This document shows, one piece after another, positions 675 through 59,475 of a stretch of DNA of 64,000 bases. This DNA is from Crambe crambe (taxonomy: Eukaryota > Porifera > Demospongiae > Poecilosclerida > Crambeidae), in assembly GCA_963924555.1 (NCBI GenBank), contig OZ004591.1, positions 5,146,001-5,210,000 on the forward strand. Reading direction: 5' to 3'. A program made the position numbers and the translations under genes. The first letter of the stretch is position 1; every line of letters begins with the position of its first letter. Below the pieces are notes generated by a model. The model was not told the DNA's origin. It did no database searches and saw only the letters and a program-made list of their open reading frames with translations.

Positions 675-1712
675 CTAGTAGTTGAAGAAGTGCACGTGTT
701 TCTGGAGCTGATTCGAGCAAGTTGGAGTTTGCACATACTCCTTCCCATCAGCAAAGCCTTCCTCCGTGTAGACATAATTGCGATTGTTGGCCAGTGCTTG
801 ATTGATAAGAAGCTGAAAGTCAGCATGGAGACTTGTACATGTTGCTTTTTCACACAGCGCTTTGCAAACTTCAGTTATGAACCACGACCCCCTGTAGCTG
901 TCTCGGTACGACTTGTTCCCGCCAACGGTGGCATAGCACATGTAGAAGTGTGTGCGTCCTGTTGTATATGCACGAGGTGCTACACTTGTTGATGCATCAT
1001 CTGCTTGTACTCGAAGATCACCCATCCTACAACCTTGGCAAGCTTGGATGAAGAATACTTTTGGCTTGCCTAACAGCAGTTCGCTATCTCCTGTCATGTC
1101 TTCTATGAGCTTTATATCGACCGTCTTGCTATCTGAACAAATAATCTTGCCTTCTTTTCCATGTGAGAGTATGCAGCAGATAAATGAGTCATTTGAAACT
1201 CTAGTCTTGGCTTTCTTTTTGCTCTGCAACAAAAGCTCATCAATATGAGAGAATAAGTCGATGGTTTCTTGGCTTTTGAGATTACGGTATATCTTGACAC
1301 GATAGCCCATAAAGAGCAAAGTTTCAACAAGGTTATATTCATCTCGATCGGTTCCATGCCGTGTAGAAGGTGCATTTCGGTTATGAAGTTTCTCGAATAC
1401 CTTGTTACTGATGATCCACGCTACACCATGTTTGCTGGATGTCATAGGGTAGTATCCTTCCCTATACTTGCGTTGATTGACAGGTTCTGGATTTATTTCG
1501 GTGAGTTTTTCATCATTATCGTGGAGCTTAAGCATTGGAATGAAGGAGCCTCGATCACAAGCCTCATAGTAATCCAGTTCCTTATCAAAACTGGGGTCTT
1601 TATGACATAGCCGCAAAGACCTCCCTATGCATGTAGAAAGGACTATGATTACTATTAACACTAATAGGTATACCTTAAGGTGGGTATTATTGGTGGCTAC
1701 TAATTTTAGCAT
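675..1712 (-). CDS. Caspase (peptidase C14 domain), probably a terminal exon
   Basis: The open frame encodes a complete caspase domain, a cysteine protease that cuts after Asp in apoptosis or inflammation-type signalling. The catalytic His lies in ILSHGKEG (His at about residue 184) and the catalytic Cys in FIQACQG (about 225). The usual pentapeptide is QACRG, so Gln replaces Arg. The p10-type segment is present: SYRDSYRGSWF near 268-278 and a C-terminal hydrophobic FF pair. The large subunit starts near residue 90. The first 29 residues look like a membrane anchor, but they are read through a good splice acceptor (tttctacatgcatag, exon from 1624) and through the inverted repeat of a mobile element. 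I therefore take 675-1624 as a terminal exon with entry phase 1. That phase matches the donor at 2577 of the SAM-domain exons upstream. No CARD or DED precedes it in this frame. The family call is firm; the gene start is not. Confidence 0.9.
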   Translation of the reverse strand: MLKLVATNNTHLKVYLLVLIVIIVLSTCIGRSLRLCHKDPSFDKELDYYEACDRGSFIPMLKLHDNDEKLTEINPEPVNQRKYREGYYPMTSSKHGVAWIISNKVFEKLHNRNAPSTRHGTDRDEYNLVETLLFMGYRVKIYRNLKSQETIDLFSHIDELLLQSKKKAKTRVSNDSFICCILSHGKEGKIICSDSKTVDIKLIEDMTGDSELLLGKPKVFFIQACQGCRMGDLRVQADDASTSVAPRAYTTGRTHFYMCYATVGGNKSYRDSYRGSWFITEVCKALCEKATCTSLHADFQLLINQALANNRNYVYTEEGFADGKEYVQTPTCSNQLQKHVHFFNY

Positions 1713-2172
1713 TTTAAGGGGATACTGTATTTGGTGGGTATTAATTTAGCTATTTTGAGCTTTGAGTATTCTATTTTTAAATGTAGTTTCATATGAAGAG
1801 TCTTCAAGAATATCAGGCACGAACAATACAATGCATTATTGTGTCAGTAACTATCATTGGAGAGTTAGTTTTTGTAGATTGAACAAAAAGGATCTTCACT
1901 GGGAATAGTGATACTTCAATCACCCACCCTACTGCTGTCATTCTTGAGTCCATGAAATCAGAAGTATCCGAAATAGACCCTGATGAAGACAACAGCGATC
2001 TAGCTAGCTAGCTAACTCCACCATACCAGGACACTAGCACTGTTTTTGTTCAATATTACTTCTAATTATACGAAATTTTATTATAGCGTGCGCGTGTGCT
2101 TATAATTATTAGCGAATAAAGGTAAATTCGCTAAATTAACAAGTCGCCAATAATACCCACCTTAAGGTAACC
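1669..2172. mobile_element. Decayed DNA transposon or MITE with about 42-bp inverted ends
   Basis: The arm at 1669-1710 (core ccttaaggtgggtattattg) recurs inverted at 2130-2172 with a few mismatches. Weaker partial copies of the same arm lie near 1728-1747, 2190-2215 and 2262-2300. Inside, on the plus strand at about 1894-2010, a short open stretch ends in an acidic, Ser-rich tail (IDPDEDNSD) that resembles the end of a transposase. A stop lies just upstream of it. I read this as a deletion derivative that kept a transposase tail. The superfamily is not certain. It sits in the gap between the SAM exons and the caspase exon. Confidence 0.6.
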
Positions 2173-2333
2173 ACATTAGTAATTATGTAACAGGTATTGG
2201 GATAAACACCAATGCATCAATGTTTTCTACATCTGATTGCACCACTACAAATCAGTGTTTGATATAATATGGGTATTGGGGTAACCACCAATTAAGACCA
2301 GTTTTATACCTGGTTAGTGTTCCCCTGTTAAAA

Positions 2334-2334
2334 A

Positions 2335-2386
<52 letters not shown>

Positions 2387-2390
2387 ATAG
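2334..2390. repeat. (AAAT)n microsatellite
   Basis: About 14 uninterrupted aaat units follow the transposon-derived sequence. A plus-strand frame (2392-2589) runs out of it, but I cannot assign it to a gene. Confidence 0.95.
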
Positions 2391-2576
2391 GGTGTTGACT
2401 ACTGAACCTGTTACAGTAGTGTCACTATGTGCACTACATGATACAGTTCAATATAAAGAGAGGACTGAAGTACCCTTGTTGGGGGCTAATAATGATATTA
2501 GCTGGTTGAATGATAATAAGGAAGTCCTCACATTGAAGAGGATCAAAATTGAAGAGTTATATACACATTATTGTAC

Positions 2577-4345
2577 CTGCTGTTGTTGAAGGACTTGTAC
2601 AACCAGAGTTACCTATTGGGTAGTGATTGTGGTCATAGTGACTAGCTACTGAATCTGAAAGCCACTTATATGTACCTTCTTTTTTGTTTTTCTTCACTCC
2701 TTCCTGCAGGGTCTTAATGGTGTCCAGTCCAACTGGGCTAATGTCATCAATTTTATATCTCTCTAATTTTTCCTCTGTTAGATTCATGAAAAGGCAACCA
2801 GAAATCCCTGATTCTGCGATGGGAAGCCAAAAAAAGTTAACTTAAAAAAGCTTAAGTGCAATCACTACTGACCTCTGATTATGTTACAATCGTCCTTAGG
2901 CACATGCTTTGACTGCAGCCACAGAGCTAGTTCTGCTGCACTCAAATCTTCAGAAAACTCTTTCACTTCTATAATGCATAATAAAAAAGGTAAATGTGAT
3001 GTAGTTCATGAGGGAGTTTACACAAAATATATACTCAAGTCATGCATGGTCAATATTATCTGAAAACTATCTCCTCAAAAACTTCCCTGCATGAAGTTTT
3101 CTTGATTTAGTTGTTAATTACTGTTTGCACGTACCAGGCTGATCTGGTGCTGCTGAAGCATCAAACTCAAATGAAACCTGCTGTTTCAAAAGGAATCCAT
3201 CACACTAATGATAATTAAAGTTTCAATTTTGTATGGATTGTACCTGTGACAAAATTGGAGAAGTTTCAGCTCCAACATCAGCTGTGTGAAAAGAAATGGC
3301 TTATGTACACTCAAATATGCAGTATTTACTACTAGCCAGCCCCTCCCCTCCCCCCCCCCCCCCACTTTTTTTAATTGTAGAAAATTGTAGAGATCAAAGA
3401 AAAATCTTCTGCTGTATGTTATTTGTAACATTACTTTTAACAGTGAGCGAGTGAGCAAGTAAAGAGCTGATAGGTTCCTGAACTCAGTTTATGCTTCAAC
3501 TCTTAAGATTCTTGCAGTTGAGTTATAATTTTGGGTAGCTATAAGTGGGGGGTTCCAGCCGGCAGCTAAGTGGGGGTTCTAGCCGGCTGTATGGTATAGG
3601 AACCTGTAATGCTCACCATGAAGCACTTTGATGAGCCTACAACCCACTTAGATAAGCATGTCACAGTGCATGACAATAGTACGAGTCATGACCTGAGAGT
3701 CAGCTTATTCACTGCACTCATTGGGATTCTCCCACTTAGATTGCGGAGTCACCAATAATTCCCTACCCCACTGCAGAAATAGTAACTGCTATCATGTTGA
3801 TAGTAACCAATGCCCAACTAACACCAGCATTTATAAGTACCTGGTGGCCTCAAGTCTTTTTGCAGTGCGATGATGGTATCCACCCCAACTGATGTCAAAT
3901 CAATCTTGTATCTCCCTTTCAATCGTTCCTCGGTTAAATCCATGAAGATTTGGCCAGAAATACCAGCACCTTTTAAAAGACAACAAAATCAAGTCAAAGC
4001 ATAAGGAAGGAGGCCGGGGATCCAGTTCAAATTTGCCAAGGACAGAAAATTTTATAGTGGAAAGATTTCTCACCACAAAAATTTCTTTCGTGCTGTTATG
4101 ACTTGCAATTGTATGTATGATTATGTATGATTATGTATGTATGTACCATTGATCTTGTCACAATCACCCTTTGGTACGTGTTTGGACAGCAGCCACTCTG
4201 CAAGCTCATCTGCACTCAATTCCTTAGAGAATTCCTTCACCTCTGTATGTACACCAAATAATAATGGCTTTGGATAATCATACTCAATGGACTATTAATC
4301 CCTACCTGACAGAACTTGAATAGGGAAATCAGTATCAGATTCAGC
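2577..4345 (-). CDS. Two tandem SAM domains (seven exons), downstream part of the GTPase gene
   Basis: Seven short exons are read on the minus strand: 4306-4345, 4147-4242, 3841-3970, 3244-3281, 3135-3180, 2873-2968 and 2577-2813. All have GT-AG borders and mutually consistent phases. SAM 1 reads EFSKELSADELAEWLLSKHV, then a second exon containing MDLTEERLKGRYKI and SVGVDTIIAL. SAM 2 repeats this as ELALWLQSKHVPKDD, then MNLTEEKLERYKI and PVGLDTIKTL. SAM domains mediate oligomerisation and adaptor binding. Each domain is preceded by acidic linker exons. The first SAM exon of both copies is exactly 96 nt, so the exon set was duplicated. The last exon can end at a phase-1 donor at 2577, or read on to a stop at 2557. 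The first option joins it in frame to the caspase exon. Confidence 0.75.
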
Positions 4346-4530
4346 CTATAATGAAAGAGCAAAATCGTGATAATAATTATAATTTAGTTGTGAAGCAAAA
4401 TGTTGGACCCTAAATAAAGCTCTAGGACTAATCAGGACACTTCACCCCCTGAAATGAGGACACCCCTCTGATCACAAGATTGTCCTACAACCATAGAGAT
4501 GTACCATAGACTGAATAATTATATGATTAC

Positions 4531-6668
4531 CTGTGATGAAACTTCTTTAGCTCTGACTTCGACCTCCTGAAACCACACCCTCTGAGACTCAGTCAAATCA
4601 AGGATTTTCTGATCGACCTGACACTTCAAGAAATTGTTATCGCCTTTCCGCAGAGCGAGGTGCTCCTTCACCGCATGACTGGAGTCGTGTATGCACTTAA
4701 ATCCGAACTTGTACTGCATCGTGTTTGACTTGTGATCCATGTGTGGAACAAGGGTCTCCAGAAATGACTCTGTCCTCTCACGTATGGTAGAACATATTTC
4801 TTCATTTGGGACACTACTGCGAGGACCTCGTGAAAGTGAAATTGCAATGTACGAAGGACGTGAGATGAGAACAACTTGGTCTCGCTTGTAGGAGAACTTA
4901 ATCATGTTCTTCCAGATTTTTTCATCTTCGGTCAATTCCCACTGAAAGGCAAAGTCGGCAATCATGTGGGAAAATATGCCTACAGGCATGTAGCCACAGT
5001 CGTATTGCAACATCAAAGGAGCTGGATTGTGCTTGGAGGTTACTATGGACTTCAATTCGGTCTTCAATTCTGCAGCTGTTGCACTCTTCAGGGCACAAGG
5101 CATGAAGTAAGTTTTCTTTCCAGCGGATTTAGAGATTACAATCAGAATCTTGAGGTGTTCAAGAAGCTTCACTAGCTGATCGAGTGGGAGTTTGTTGGAT
5201 TCATCACTGCACGGCTGCATGGCACACTGGAGATCTTCATCAGAAAACATCCCTCTTTCTTTAAACTTCTCTATGATTCCAGGACCGATTCTAGTAGGGT
5301 CACTGAAAGTGTGGACAATCAGCTGTGTGATGCCATCGTAGATGACTTGCACATCACAGAAGACTTTGTCTTCGACACCTTTCACTCCAGGATAGTGCAA
5401 GATCAGCCCCATGCAGTGATGGAAGAACCAAAGAGCTTCTTTCAACTCCGTGGGATCGATTCCAAGTTTACCTGCTTGCTCTTTACAATCTTCCAGAAAC
5501 ATTATACGCCTTCTTGATGCGCTGTTGATGTCCTTGCGCATGTAGAGACTCAATATCAGCCAGGCTGCTGGGATGGTGATCTCTTGGAAGTGATGGTTGA
5601 TTATCTTTGCCAAGATATTCTTGATATCCTTTCTCTCACTATTGAGATCTTTGAAATTATCCACTGCCAAAATAGGCTCATTTCTTGCAGGAAATAGTAG
5701 AGTACCATCCTTATAAAGGCTCATATTTTTGACTTGCTCCTTCAAGAATTCCTGCTTCTCCAATAACTCCTCCTTGCTCTTTAACTCATCCAAGTGTGTC
5801 CCCACAAAGAGTGCTCTGGAACGAATTGGAAATTTCTTGCGCATGCTCTTATTAAAATCCTGTGAAGAATCACTGCATGTACCTCTGATACTGGGATCAT
5901 TAACGCTGGCAATGCTTGCAAGGACTTGAAACAGACATTCCTCGACGGTAATCATCGACTCTTCCTCCTCTTCTTCACCATCACTATTGATGGAAGCCAA
6001 TTTGAATGGCCTGTCGAGTTGGTCTTTCAATCGATGATAAAGGAGGTAGAGGGAAGGTCCCATGATTAGGGAGGAAAACATATCATAAAACTCAGGCTTG
6101 CCACCGGTGTCAGTATTGATCAAAAGAATGAGGTGATCAAGGTCACTCAGCAGACTCTTGATGTCACTCACCTCTCTTTCCCTGGCATCTTGAGGAAGGG
6201 CCAACAAATCTTGAATTATCTCCCTCTTTACAAGCGTGTGTACTTTCTTGTCTGGCGGAGAATCAGAGGCAAGTGGTTTTGTTGTGGGCTCTGATGATGA
6301 TGAGGTGTCATCTGCTGCATCTTTTTGAACAGCTTCCAATAGATGAGTGAGGAAGCTGTCTTCCTCCACAAACCCCTTTAGTTTGAGCCACTGGAATGAA
6401 TCTGGATCCTCAGGATCGACCGAGACTGCTGCCATATCTGAGCACAAGCTCCTTGCAGTGATGACTTTAGCTTGTCTTAGGTTGAATGCTGAAATTATTT
6501 TTTTGAATTTCAGGATGTCTCCCATCAGCCGTTTTATTGTGGATGACTTTCCTGAGTGAGGAAGGCCCACATGGACAAGCCTTGCCATCTTTATTTTCAC
6601 AGCAATTTTTTCTCTGATGGCTTTGTAATAAACTTCCCTGCATTGTGCATTATCTTGAGATACAGTAC
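4531..6668 (-). CDS. Roc/COR-like P-loop GTPase (large internal exon)
   Basis: This large exon (first Met at 6600, but the frame stays open to an acceptor at 6668) encodes a ROCO-type GTPase module. The P-loop is VGLPHSGKSST near residues 11-21 from that Met. A switch-II-like motif reads INTDTGGKPEFYD, resembling the DTGGQPEF seen in invertebrate ROCO-like proteins. A G4-like motif reads FVGTHLDE. The following segment (IPAAWLILSLYMRK, then LKEALWFFHHCMGLILHYPG) fits a COR domain, which links the GTPase to dimerisation and output domains. The exon ends ahead of a GTAATC donor at 4530, in phase 0, and joins the acidic linker exon at 4345. Phase-1 entry at 6668 means at least one upstream exon exists; I could not find it. 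Family assignment rests on motifs only. Confidence 0.8.
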
Positions 6669-11086: not shown

Positions 11087-18553
<7,467 letters not shown>

Positions 18554-57885: not shown

Positions 57886-59475
57886 TTATTGCAACATTAT
57901 TGAAGCTTCAACATAGTCTTCCAATGAATTAAATTGACGTCTGTTAAAAGAGTTGTTTAAAAGAGAGAAAGCACGCTCTGCAGCTGCAGATGAAGGCTGA
58001 ACCAATAACACATTCCTCACTGCTTTTGACCAAGTAGGCAGTTCGACTTCATAACGCTTCCACCATTCAAGAGGGTCACACTTCTCACTGATATCCCTTG
58101 CTTTAGCCAAGTAGAGAGGCAATTCCAACTTCAAGGAGGAAATAGTAGTTAGATCCAGAAAAGTAAAAGCATCCACACAACCTATTTCTGCTGCTGTGGG
58201 TTGAAGTTCACTAATCTTAGTTGGATTAAAGTACCTGGCTGCCTTGAAGATAGATACGGGAGATTTATTATCATCACCAAATTGGTCTTTGAAATACTTT
58301 ATGCCGCTCCATTCCATATTGTATCCACTGTTGTTGCTGTGAGACATTTGTAGGCGACAGTGATTTTGCAACAGCGTTGAGGTTGGGATAATTAGCAGTG
58401 TGTATCACAGCAGATAGTTGCTGGATAATTTCATAAGCTTCAAGGATAAGTGCACCATCTCCCTCAATGTGATAAGTGGCTTTGATAAAATGCTCACCAA
58501 GGTCAATAACAGCTGCTAACTCAATTTGGAGTAGAGCTCGTTATTGAAGATTTGTTAGTATTTCTATCACTTTAGGCCGAATAGAAGGTCCTATGTCAGT
58601 GTTATCAGCCGCTGTTCTATTTTCCAGTTGCACACAAAACGGACTATCACTGCCAGAACCTCTCCAAGACGGGTGGTGCCATCAAAAATCACGGAAATAC
58701 ATTTCCCTGCAATTTCTTGTTTTATTCTGGATCGCTCTTCATGGAGAATGAAAGGTACTAATTCCAACATATGACTCTTATCTGTTAGTCTATAAGCACC
58801 TTCTTCCAGAATATCACGAAATATGTCAAGCTTTGACATTGGTACACCAGCTCTTAAAAAAGTAGTAACAACTCTTGTTCTGTAGACACGTTGTTCATCA
58901 GATAGTGTTTCACCCTTACTGTGATTACCATCGTCATACTTCTTTAGAGCTCTGACAATATCCATTTCATGGTCCACTCTTTCTTTCATCCTTTTCTTAC
59001 TATCCATATGCTTCACTGACCTCACATGGTTCTGAACTGTGCTACGCTTTAGAGATAACATTTCTCTACATGCAGTGCAGAACAATCGATGATTTGAAAC
59101 AGTTAGCTTCCCCTCAGGAAACTCCAGCACTCTCTGAGAAGGTTTTACAGATTTTGGATCATATTGCCTACTACAACCACCTGACTTCTTTTTGCCTTTG
59201 GGAGGATTGCACTGTAACCTCCTTTTCCTGCTCAAGTCCGAAGGAGTAGGTGACTTCAGTCTCTCGAGAAGTGAAACTGGAGCACTACTTGATGAATTAT
59301 CAGATTCATGAGAGCTACAGCTAGTGCAGTTGTAGGAAGAACTCTCAGAAGAAGCGAGAATATCACTAGCAGACGTCATTATTATGCCACAAGCAGCTGC
59401 TAGACAGGTGCACGTGCAACATAATTCATAACCGGTAACCGGTACCGTGGTGGCAGGCACAAACACATTCCACAA
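57886..59475 (-). mobile_element. Defective hAT-family transposon with BED-type zinc finger
   Basis: Two transposase pieces are read in order. The N-terminal piece (58591-59475, Met possibly near 59378) has a BED-like finger: LFCTACREMLSLKRSTVQNH followed by VRSVKHMDSKKRM. It then runs to VIFDGTTRLGEV, near the first catalytic Asp, and ends at a stop. A middle piece near 58370-58530 reads VIDLGEHFIKATYHIEGDGA in a frame after the stop. The C-terminal piece (57886-58371) carries the hATC dimerisation motif WWKRYEVELPTW, then VLLVQPSSAAAERAFSLLNN. Much of the catalytic core between them is missing, so it is inactive. Clear terminal inverted repeats or 8-bp target duplications were not found. 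Confidence 0.8.

Follow-up and report, generated by a model that had tools for sequence, protein, structure and literature searches.

Apoptosomes and inflammasomes are built from separate proteins joined through CARD or PYD domains (APAF1 with caspase-9, NLR proteins with caspase-1), SARM1 carries two SAM domains followed by a TIR NADase, and DAPK1 combines a ROC domain with a death domain. In ROCO proteins the GTPase-COR part dimerises or opens on nucleotide change. Here we describe a locus of the sponge Crambe crambe, situated in a stretch of 64,000 nucleotides (the window, C14:5146001-5210000; GenBank assembly GCA_963924555.1, contig OZ004591.1), in which a Roc-like G domain, a COR domain, two SAM domains and a caspase follow one another and very probably belong to one gene that encodes a single polypeptide, as predicted from the DNA alone. 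With four other copies in the genome (143 Mb in 119 contigs), one of them 5'-truncated, it appears to form a small and recent family. The logical parts of the apoptosome and inflammasome, a nucleotide switch, an oligomeriser and a caspase, are all present, but here they would lie on one polypeptide, with a ROCO-type GTPase instead of a STAND NTPase and SAM instead of a death fold. As in SARM1, a tandem SAM pair stands directly before an effector enzyme, and among solved SAM structures the profile comes closest to that of SARM1 (E 0.0028); unlike SARM1, which has an ARM domain, the effector is a caspase and the switch would be Roc-COR.

Fusions of a sensor to a caspase are already known as such. 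The accessible portions of the amphioxus report describe TNFR-caspase, LRR-caspase and Death-caspase hybrid genes, with cDNA for the TNFR-caspase and the Death-caspase and a QACXG active site for the TNFR- and LRR-caspases (Genome Biol 2008 9:R123, PMC2575513). These resemble the sponge locus in that a receptor or interaction module is fused directly to a caspase and differ from it, in the same portions of that report, in that the caspase carries neither a GTPase nor a SAM pair, the TNFR-caspase being transmembrane (PMC2575513). In Aplysia, ROCO domains occur within TLR- and MyD88-like proteins, according to the available part of the source (PMC9334734); like DAPK1, these fuse a COR-containing Roc-type unit to death or immune signalling domains, whereas the C-terminal effector of the sponge protein is a caspase and no LRR or kinase was found in its modelled exons. 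Another sponge, Amphimedon, has 357 TRADD-N proteins, up to 50% of them with unique architectures (Kaur et al. 2021, PMC8195603), and resembles Crambe in a lineage-specific expansion rich in unique domain orders; unlike here, no ROCO-SAM-caspase order appears in the accessible text, where "ROCO" stands only within one cited title (PMC8195603). Nor is a ROCO-caspase or SAM-caspase protein mentioned in the accessible portions of PMC7159879, PMC7531772, PMC11508797 and PMC3196919. The original prediction for this stretch knew of no described protein of this order and none was recognised in the open-access literature, subscription papers lying mostly outside that scope; amphioxus receptor-caspase fusions are known, though, and the novelty would lie in placing on a caspase a ROCO-type GTPase, with SAM domains in the stead of a death-fold prodomain.

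The gene model has ten exons on the minus strand (window 6668-675) which, joined across GT-AG introns, give a single frame, 1,233 residues long, that stays open between the exon 1 acceptor and the stop codon at 677-675, with the domains in the order Roc-like G domain, COR, SAM, SAM, caspase and the nine introns in phases 0,1,1,1,0,1,1,1,1. This series is confirmed: every feature that had been predicted lies at its predicted place, and the junctions fit by phase, the joined model having no internal stop in the window or in the other copies. Exon 1 (4531-6668), whose acceptor is common to all four full copies, contributes 712 residues in frame and has its first in-frame ATG at 6588-6586. It carries a P-loop, GLPHSGKS (6544-6567), a G3 motif, DTGG (6100-6111), a G4-like motif, THLD (5788-5799), and a COR-A match at residues 368-524 (5095-5565). 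It is followed by a linker, exon 2 (4306-4345, phase 0 to 1), and by the two halves of SAM1 in exon 3 (4147-4242, 96 nt) and exon 4 (3841-3969); two further linkers, exon 5 (3244-3281, phase 1 to 0) and exon 6 (3135-3177, phase 0 to 1), lead to SAM2, which is likewise split between exon 7 (2873-2968, 96 nt) and exon 8 (2676-2813). Exons 3 to 6 and exon 8 are placed by the exon model and by the copies.

Exon 9 (2577-2612), found in all five copies, is a 36-nt linker exon (phase 1 to 1) that separates SAM2 from the caspase. Intron 9 (1625-2576, 952 nt; 341, 509, 1441 and 504 nt in the other copies) contains the junction in doubt, and exon 10 (675-1624) is the caspase exon, which starts 9 nt shorter, in frame, than in the other four copies. 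The phase-1 acceptor before 1624 (catag/gg) had been predicted exactly, as had the position of the phase-1 donor at 2577 (gcag/gtacaa), but the piece that this donor ends (2612-2577) is a separate exon and not the last SAM exon. An exon uniting SAM2 and the linker was considered and rejected: the 63-nt spacer before exon 9 measures 53, 64, 62 and 64 nt in the other copies, and since its length is divisible by three in no copy but that of the window, it is read as an intron.

The caspase exon matches Pfam C14 at E 1.2e-33, and among solved chains its best matches are caspase-7 (1.1e-24), caspase-6 (1.4e-24) and caspase-3 (6.6e-24). From these matches and the copies the catalytic His of SHG is placed at 1161-1163 and the catalytic Cys of QACQG at 1038-1040, the motifs SHG and Q[AT]CQG being present in five of five copies. 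COR-A is matched in the window at E 3.1e-5, under Pfam's curated cut-off, and in all 16 aligned Roc-COR family members (best 3.1e-8), the alignment covering 16 of at least 63 places with one row (L034) that is without the P-loop part; COR-B is matched in a single member at 0.099. The P-loop pattern GxxxxGK[ST] and GTHxD are found in eight of eight further members and D[ST]GG in seven. For the SAM domains, ten of the 14 SAM-like copies counted were aligned, the other four being incomplete or close to those used, and SAM_2 was matched in five of the ten (window's two included), best 3.3e-6. Against solved chains the ten-copy SAM profile gave 19 rows at E up to 1, comprising 14 of SARM1, one of SAMD12 and two more which we take to be SAM proteins; only two fall below 0.01, both SARM1 (0.0028 and 0.0035), and the best covers no more than positions 12-50 of 75. 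Exon 1, the joined SAM pieces and the caspase exon have no Pfam match to a STAND NTPase (NACHT, NB-ARC), a death-fold prodomain or a sensor domain.

A search with the joined model found the same order at three further places, namely C14b, in tandem about 7.4 kb away, C1:545 kb and C1:7.19 Mb, and a fifth copy at C1:523 kb that retains exons 4-10 only. None of the four full copies (1,234-1,248 codons including the stop) nor the 475-codon partial copy has an internal stop, and the exon models of the five copies, spread over two contigs, have GT-AG ends and matching phases, some exon ends in the copy models having been moved by hand to in-frame sites. Exons 2 and 3 are fused in C14b and the exon 7 acceptor lies 3 nt further on in C1:7.19 Mb, with the frame kept in both. 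Exon 9 is gapless and identical at 30-36 of its 36 positions in all ten copy pairs. The 60 nt after its donor, compared between the window and the three C1 copies, have 34-36 identities in 68-70 columns, the 60-nt stretch before the caspase acceptor 35-37 in 69-75 columns and the spacer before exon 9 42-47 in 64-66 columns; in the close pair C1:545/C1:523 the flanks are still alike (58 and 59 of 60). When the 46 caspase rows listed for the genome are compared with the 68 Roc-COR rows listed, exactly four caspase rows are preceded on their own strand, no more than 10 kb away, by a Roc-COR row; the distances are 2.7-3.5 kb, and the four are the full copies.

A more distant relative at C1:551 kb, with a caspase 62% identical, has one SAM spliced in frame to the caspase through two different linker exons, the reading from SAM to caspase running across five exons. 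On its minus strand (L028, C1:549001-558900, positions 4920-2252) a Pfam death domain piece (3.8e-7) is followed by the SAM and the caspase, and it is likely that this is a Death-SAM-caspase gene.

The folded parts of the family are under purifying selection and the linkers are relaxed, as seen in dN/dS (the ratio of nonsynonymous to synonymous substitution rates) estimated by Nei-Gojobori. Values are 0.22-0.30 for Roc-COR (six pairs) and 0.13-0.28 for the caspase core (ten pairs), from 0 (one synonymous change) to 0.48 for SAM1 (ten pairs, SAM1 being partial in the truncated copy) and 0.10-0.63 for SAM2 (ten pairs). The linkers of exons 5-6 give 0.88-1.78 in the six of ten pairs that are computable, with few sites. 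Constraint is thus seen in the folded parts and not in the linkers. What is kept of exon 9 is its length and its splice sites and not its amino acids.

The points that weigh against a single polypeptide lie at the last junction, in the domain labels and at the 5' end. At the junction, the five copies have one common origin and hence are not five independent tests, and the protein sequence of exon 9 is unconstrained (dN/dS 1.20-2.02 in the six of ten pairs that are computable, with about 36 sites). Furthermore, an in-frame ATG stands 29 codons upstream of the caspase exon in the window and 25 codons upstream in C14b, because of which a separate caspase start is conceivable in these two copies. 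In the window the stretch at 1625-1712 (minus strand) reads as an ATG and a hydrophobic run resembling a signal peptide, which is probably due to chance because it is not common to the three C1 copies. Such a start would suit two neighbouring genes, one ROCO-SAM-SAM and one a stand-alone caspase, that were duplicated as a block and match in phase by chance, and agreement in phase at one junction is expected by chance once in three. It would then be hard to see why exon 9 and the caspase acceptor occur in all five copies while the intron flanks between the window and C1 have decayed; in three of the five copies the caspase exon is not preceded by an ATG in frame, yet the start of that exon is conserved (dN/dS 0.33-0.64 for the first part of exon 10 in nine of ten pairs, those with changes). 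In C14b only 341 nt would be available for a promoter and first exon, and the C1:551 kb relative, too, is compatible with splicing from SAM to caspase. It is therefore unlikely that the caspase has a gene of its own, and the two-gene account with its chance match in phase highly improbable. As far as the DNA alone can say, the last junction, which had been the main doubt of the original prediction, appears to be in use: the linker exon, its phase-1 donor and the phase-1 acceptor of the caspase exon occur in five of five copies, three of these offer no ATG in frame ahead of the caspase exon, and the diverged relative makes the same connection through other linkers. The interpretation of the series as a single protein is in this respect supported.

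A further point at the same junction is the occurrence of AATAAA or ATTAAA in intron 9 of four of the five copies (one each in the window, C1:545 kb and C1:523 kb, five in C1:7.19 Mb and none in C14b). Together with a frame in the window that stays open past the exon 9 donor until a stop at 2557, this would be in keeping with one gene that has alternative ends and yields both a short ROCO-SAM-SAM form, acting as regulator or decoy, and the full caspase form. The read-through tails, however, vary by clade (GTIMCI and GTILCV as against GTN, GTN and GTK), intron 9 of C14b is without either hexamer, and we consider alternative ends unlikely.

With respect to the domain labels, the domain searches recovered the caspase and, at its sub-threshold value, COR-A. 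The window's two SAMs, joined, have no Pfam SAM match, and Pfam Roc is matched in none of the 16 aligned members. The Roc-COR profile also met no ROCO structure and nothing credible among solved structures. The label "Roc" is used because of the motifs (P-loop, DTGG, THLD) and COR-A and does not derive from a Pfam Roc match. Such a G domain might be no nucleotide switch at all, the protein serving as a scaffold or adaptor whose caspase is activated by assembling proteins, for example the death-domain ROCO relatives that are present in the genome. In addition to the missing Pfam Roc matches, this would accord with the distance of about 150 residues between P-loop and G3 in the window, which is presumably longer than in known Roc domains, and with the departures at G3 in other members (NTGG in L031, DIGG in L032, no G3 found in L040). 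Set against it are the GK[ST] P-loop and GTHxD, each kept in eight of eight further members, and the strong purifying selection on exon 1. We regard the scaffold as a rather unlikely explanation.

At the 5' end a further exon, coding or untranslated, is expected because a phase-1 acceptor precedes 6668, but blastn and tblastn (E 0.1) revealed no convincing coding exon common to the C14 and C1 copies upstream; the 50 tblastn rows were mostly the window against its recent tandem copy and the remainder were short. The distance from exon 1 to the neighbouring gene is only about 1.0 kb at C1:545 kb and about 1.8 kb at C14b, and a large missing N-terminal domain is therefore unlikely. The alternative that the order in the tandem arrays is caspase-ROCO-SAM was rejected, since, among the matches listed, none to a caspase lies upstream of the ROCO exon in the C1:7.19 Mb copy and since other reading frames (11439-15388) precede the window copy; two of these three frames were run against Pfam, with no match at 0.01.

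If the single polypeptide is taken as the working model, a mechanism running from switch through assembly to caspase has in our view an even chance of being correct. The GTPase-COR part would act as the switch, dimerising or opening upon nucleotide change, the SAM pair would build an oligomer in place of a death-fold prodomain, and the caspase domains so brought together would become active by induced proximity. Active enzyme may then be set free by cleavage at Asp sites, such as QADD between the subunits and SFD or EACD ahead of the core, and cell death in defence or self-recognition is the likely setting. SAM domains are stated not to supersaturate, in the portion of the source available (PMC13012725), and because of this it would be the nucleotide switch, and not a nucleation barrier, that determines activation. 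We put forward tentatively, and with a little less than even confidence, that this is a one-piece GTP-gated caspase without any death-fold domain, in which Roc-COR governs SAM-SAM assembly and hence caspase proximity. If true, it would represent a control principle for animal caspases different from the nucleation barrier and would unite the switch, oligomeriser and protease of a death platform in one small gene family, the roles of STAND NTPases and death folds being taken over by a ROCO-type GTPase and SAM domains. It would also make it possible to test directly whether a death-fold nucleation barrier is required for caspase activation, and it would offer a ROCO family whose enzymatic output can be measured.

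The Roc-COR exon has been much expanded in this genome, and the family probably originated when the C-terminal modules that follow such an exon were exchanged. Exon 1 has at least 68 match rows, a lower bound obtained from the 63 scored of 453 candidates. Downstream of exon 1 four other Roc-COR genes were inspected, at C8:775 kb, C6:8.59 Mb, C18:730 kb and C1:572 kb. In those at C8:775 kb and C6:8.59 Mb Roc-COR is followed by a Pfam death domain, in the latter also by ZU5, and the one piece from C18:730 kb that was run against Pfam had no match. At C1:572 kb the next frame, of 1,336 residues, opens like exon 2 (GESETDFP) and then diverges, without a Pfam match, and ankyrin repeats occur further on; tblastn with the model found no SAM or caspase exons at C1:572 kb or C8:775 kb, these two of the four genes. 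The picture is that of one Roc-COR exon with apparently exchangeable C-terminal modules. With SAM2 as query, 26 rows were matched, none of them outside C14 and C1; 21 belong to the five copies or to the C1:551 kb relative and five to other places in the same C1 region (511-544 kb), more distant SAM domains not having been searched for. In prokaryotes and viruses, one scan each for pattern-keeping relatives of Roc-COR returned 20 and 18 pattern matches, none of which was confirmed.

Roc-COR exons are clustered at C6:8.39-8.67 Mb, C8:7.0-7.1 Mb and C18:0.5-0.9 Mb, a lineage-specific expansion of possible recognition genes. The Roc-COR exon of the gene at C1:572 kb (L031, C1:565801-574400, minus strand 8417-2149) is 76-83% identical to that of the window in two rows. 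Elsewhere in the window an array of look-alike membrane-protein frames occupies 18766-42894, one on the plus strand and several on the minus strand; the plus-strand frame matches Pfam POT/PTR2 at 4.4e-15, and the single minus-strand frame that was run had no Pfam match at 0.01. Finally, a hAT transposase dimerisation region (Pfam 1.6e-12) lies at 57886-58404 on the minus strand and represents a transposon remnant or copy.

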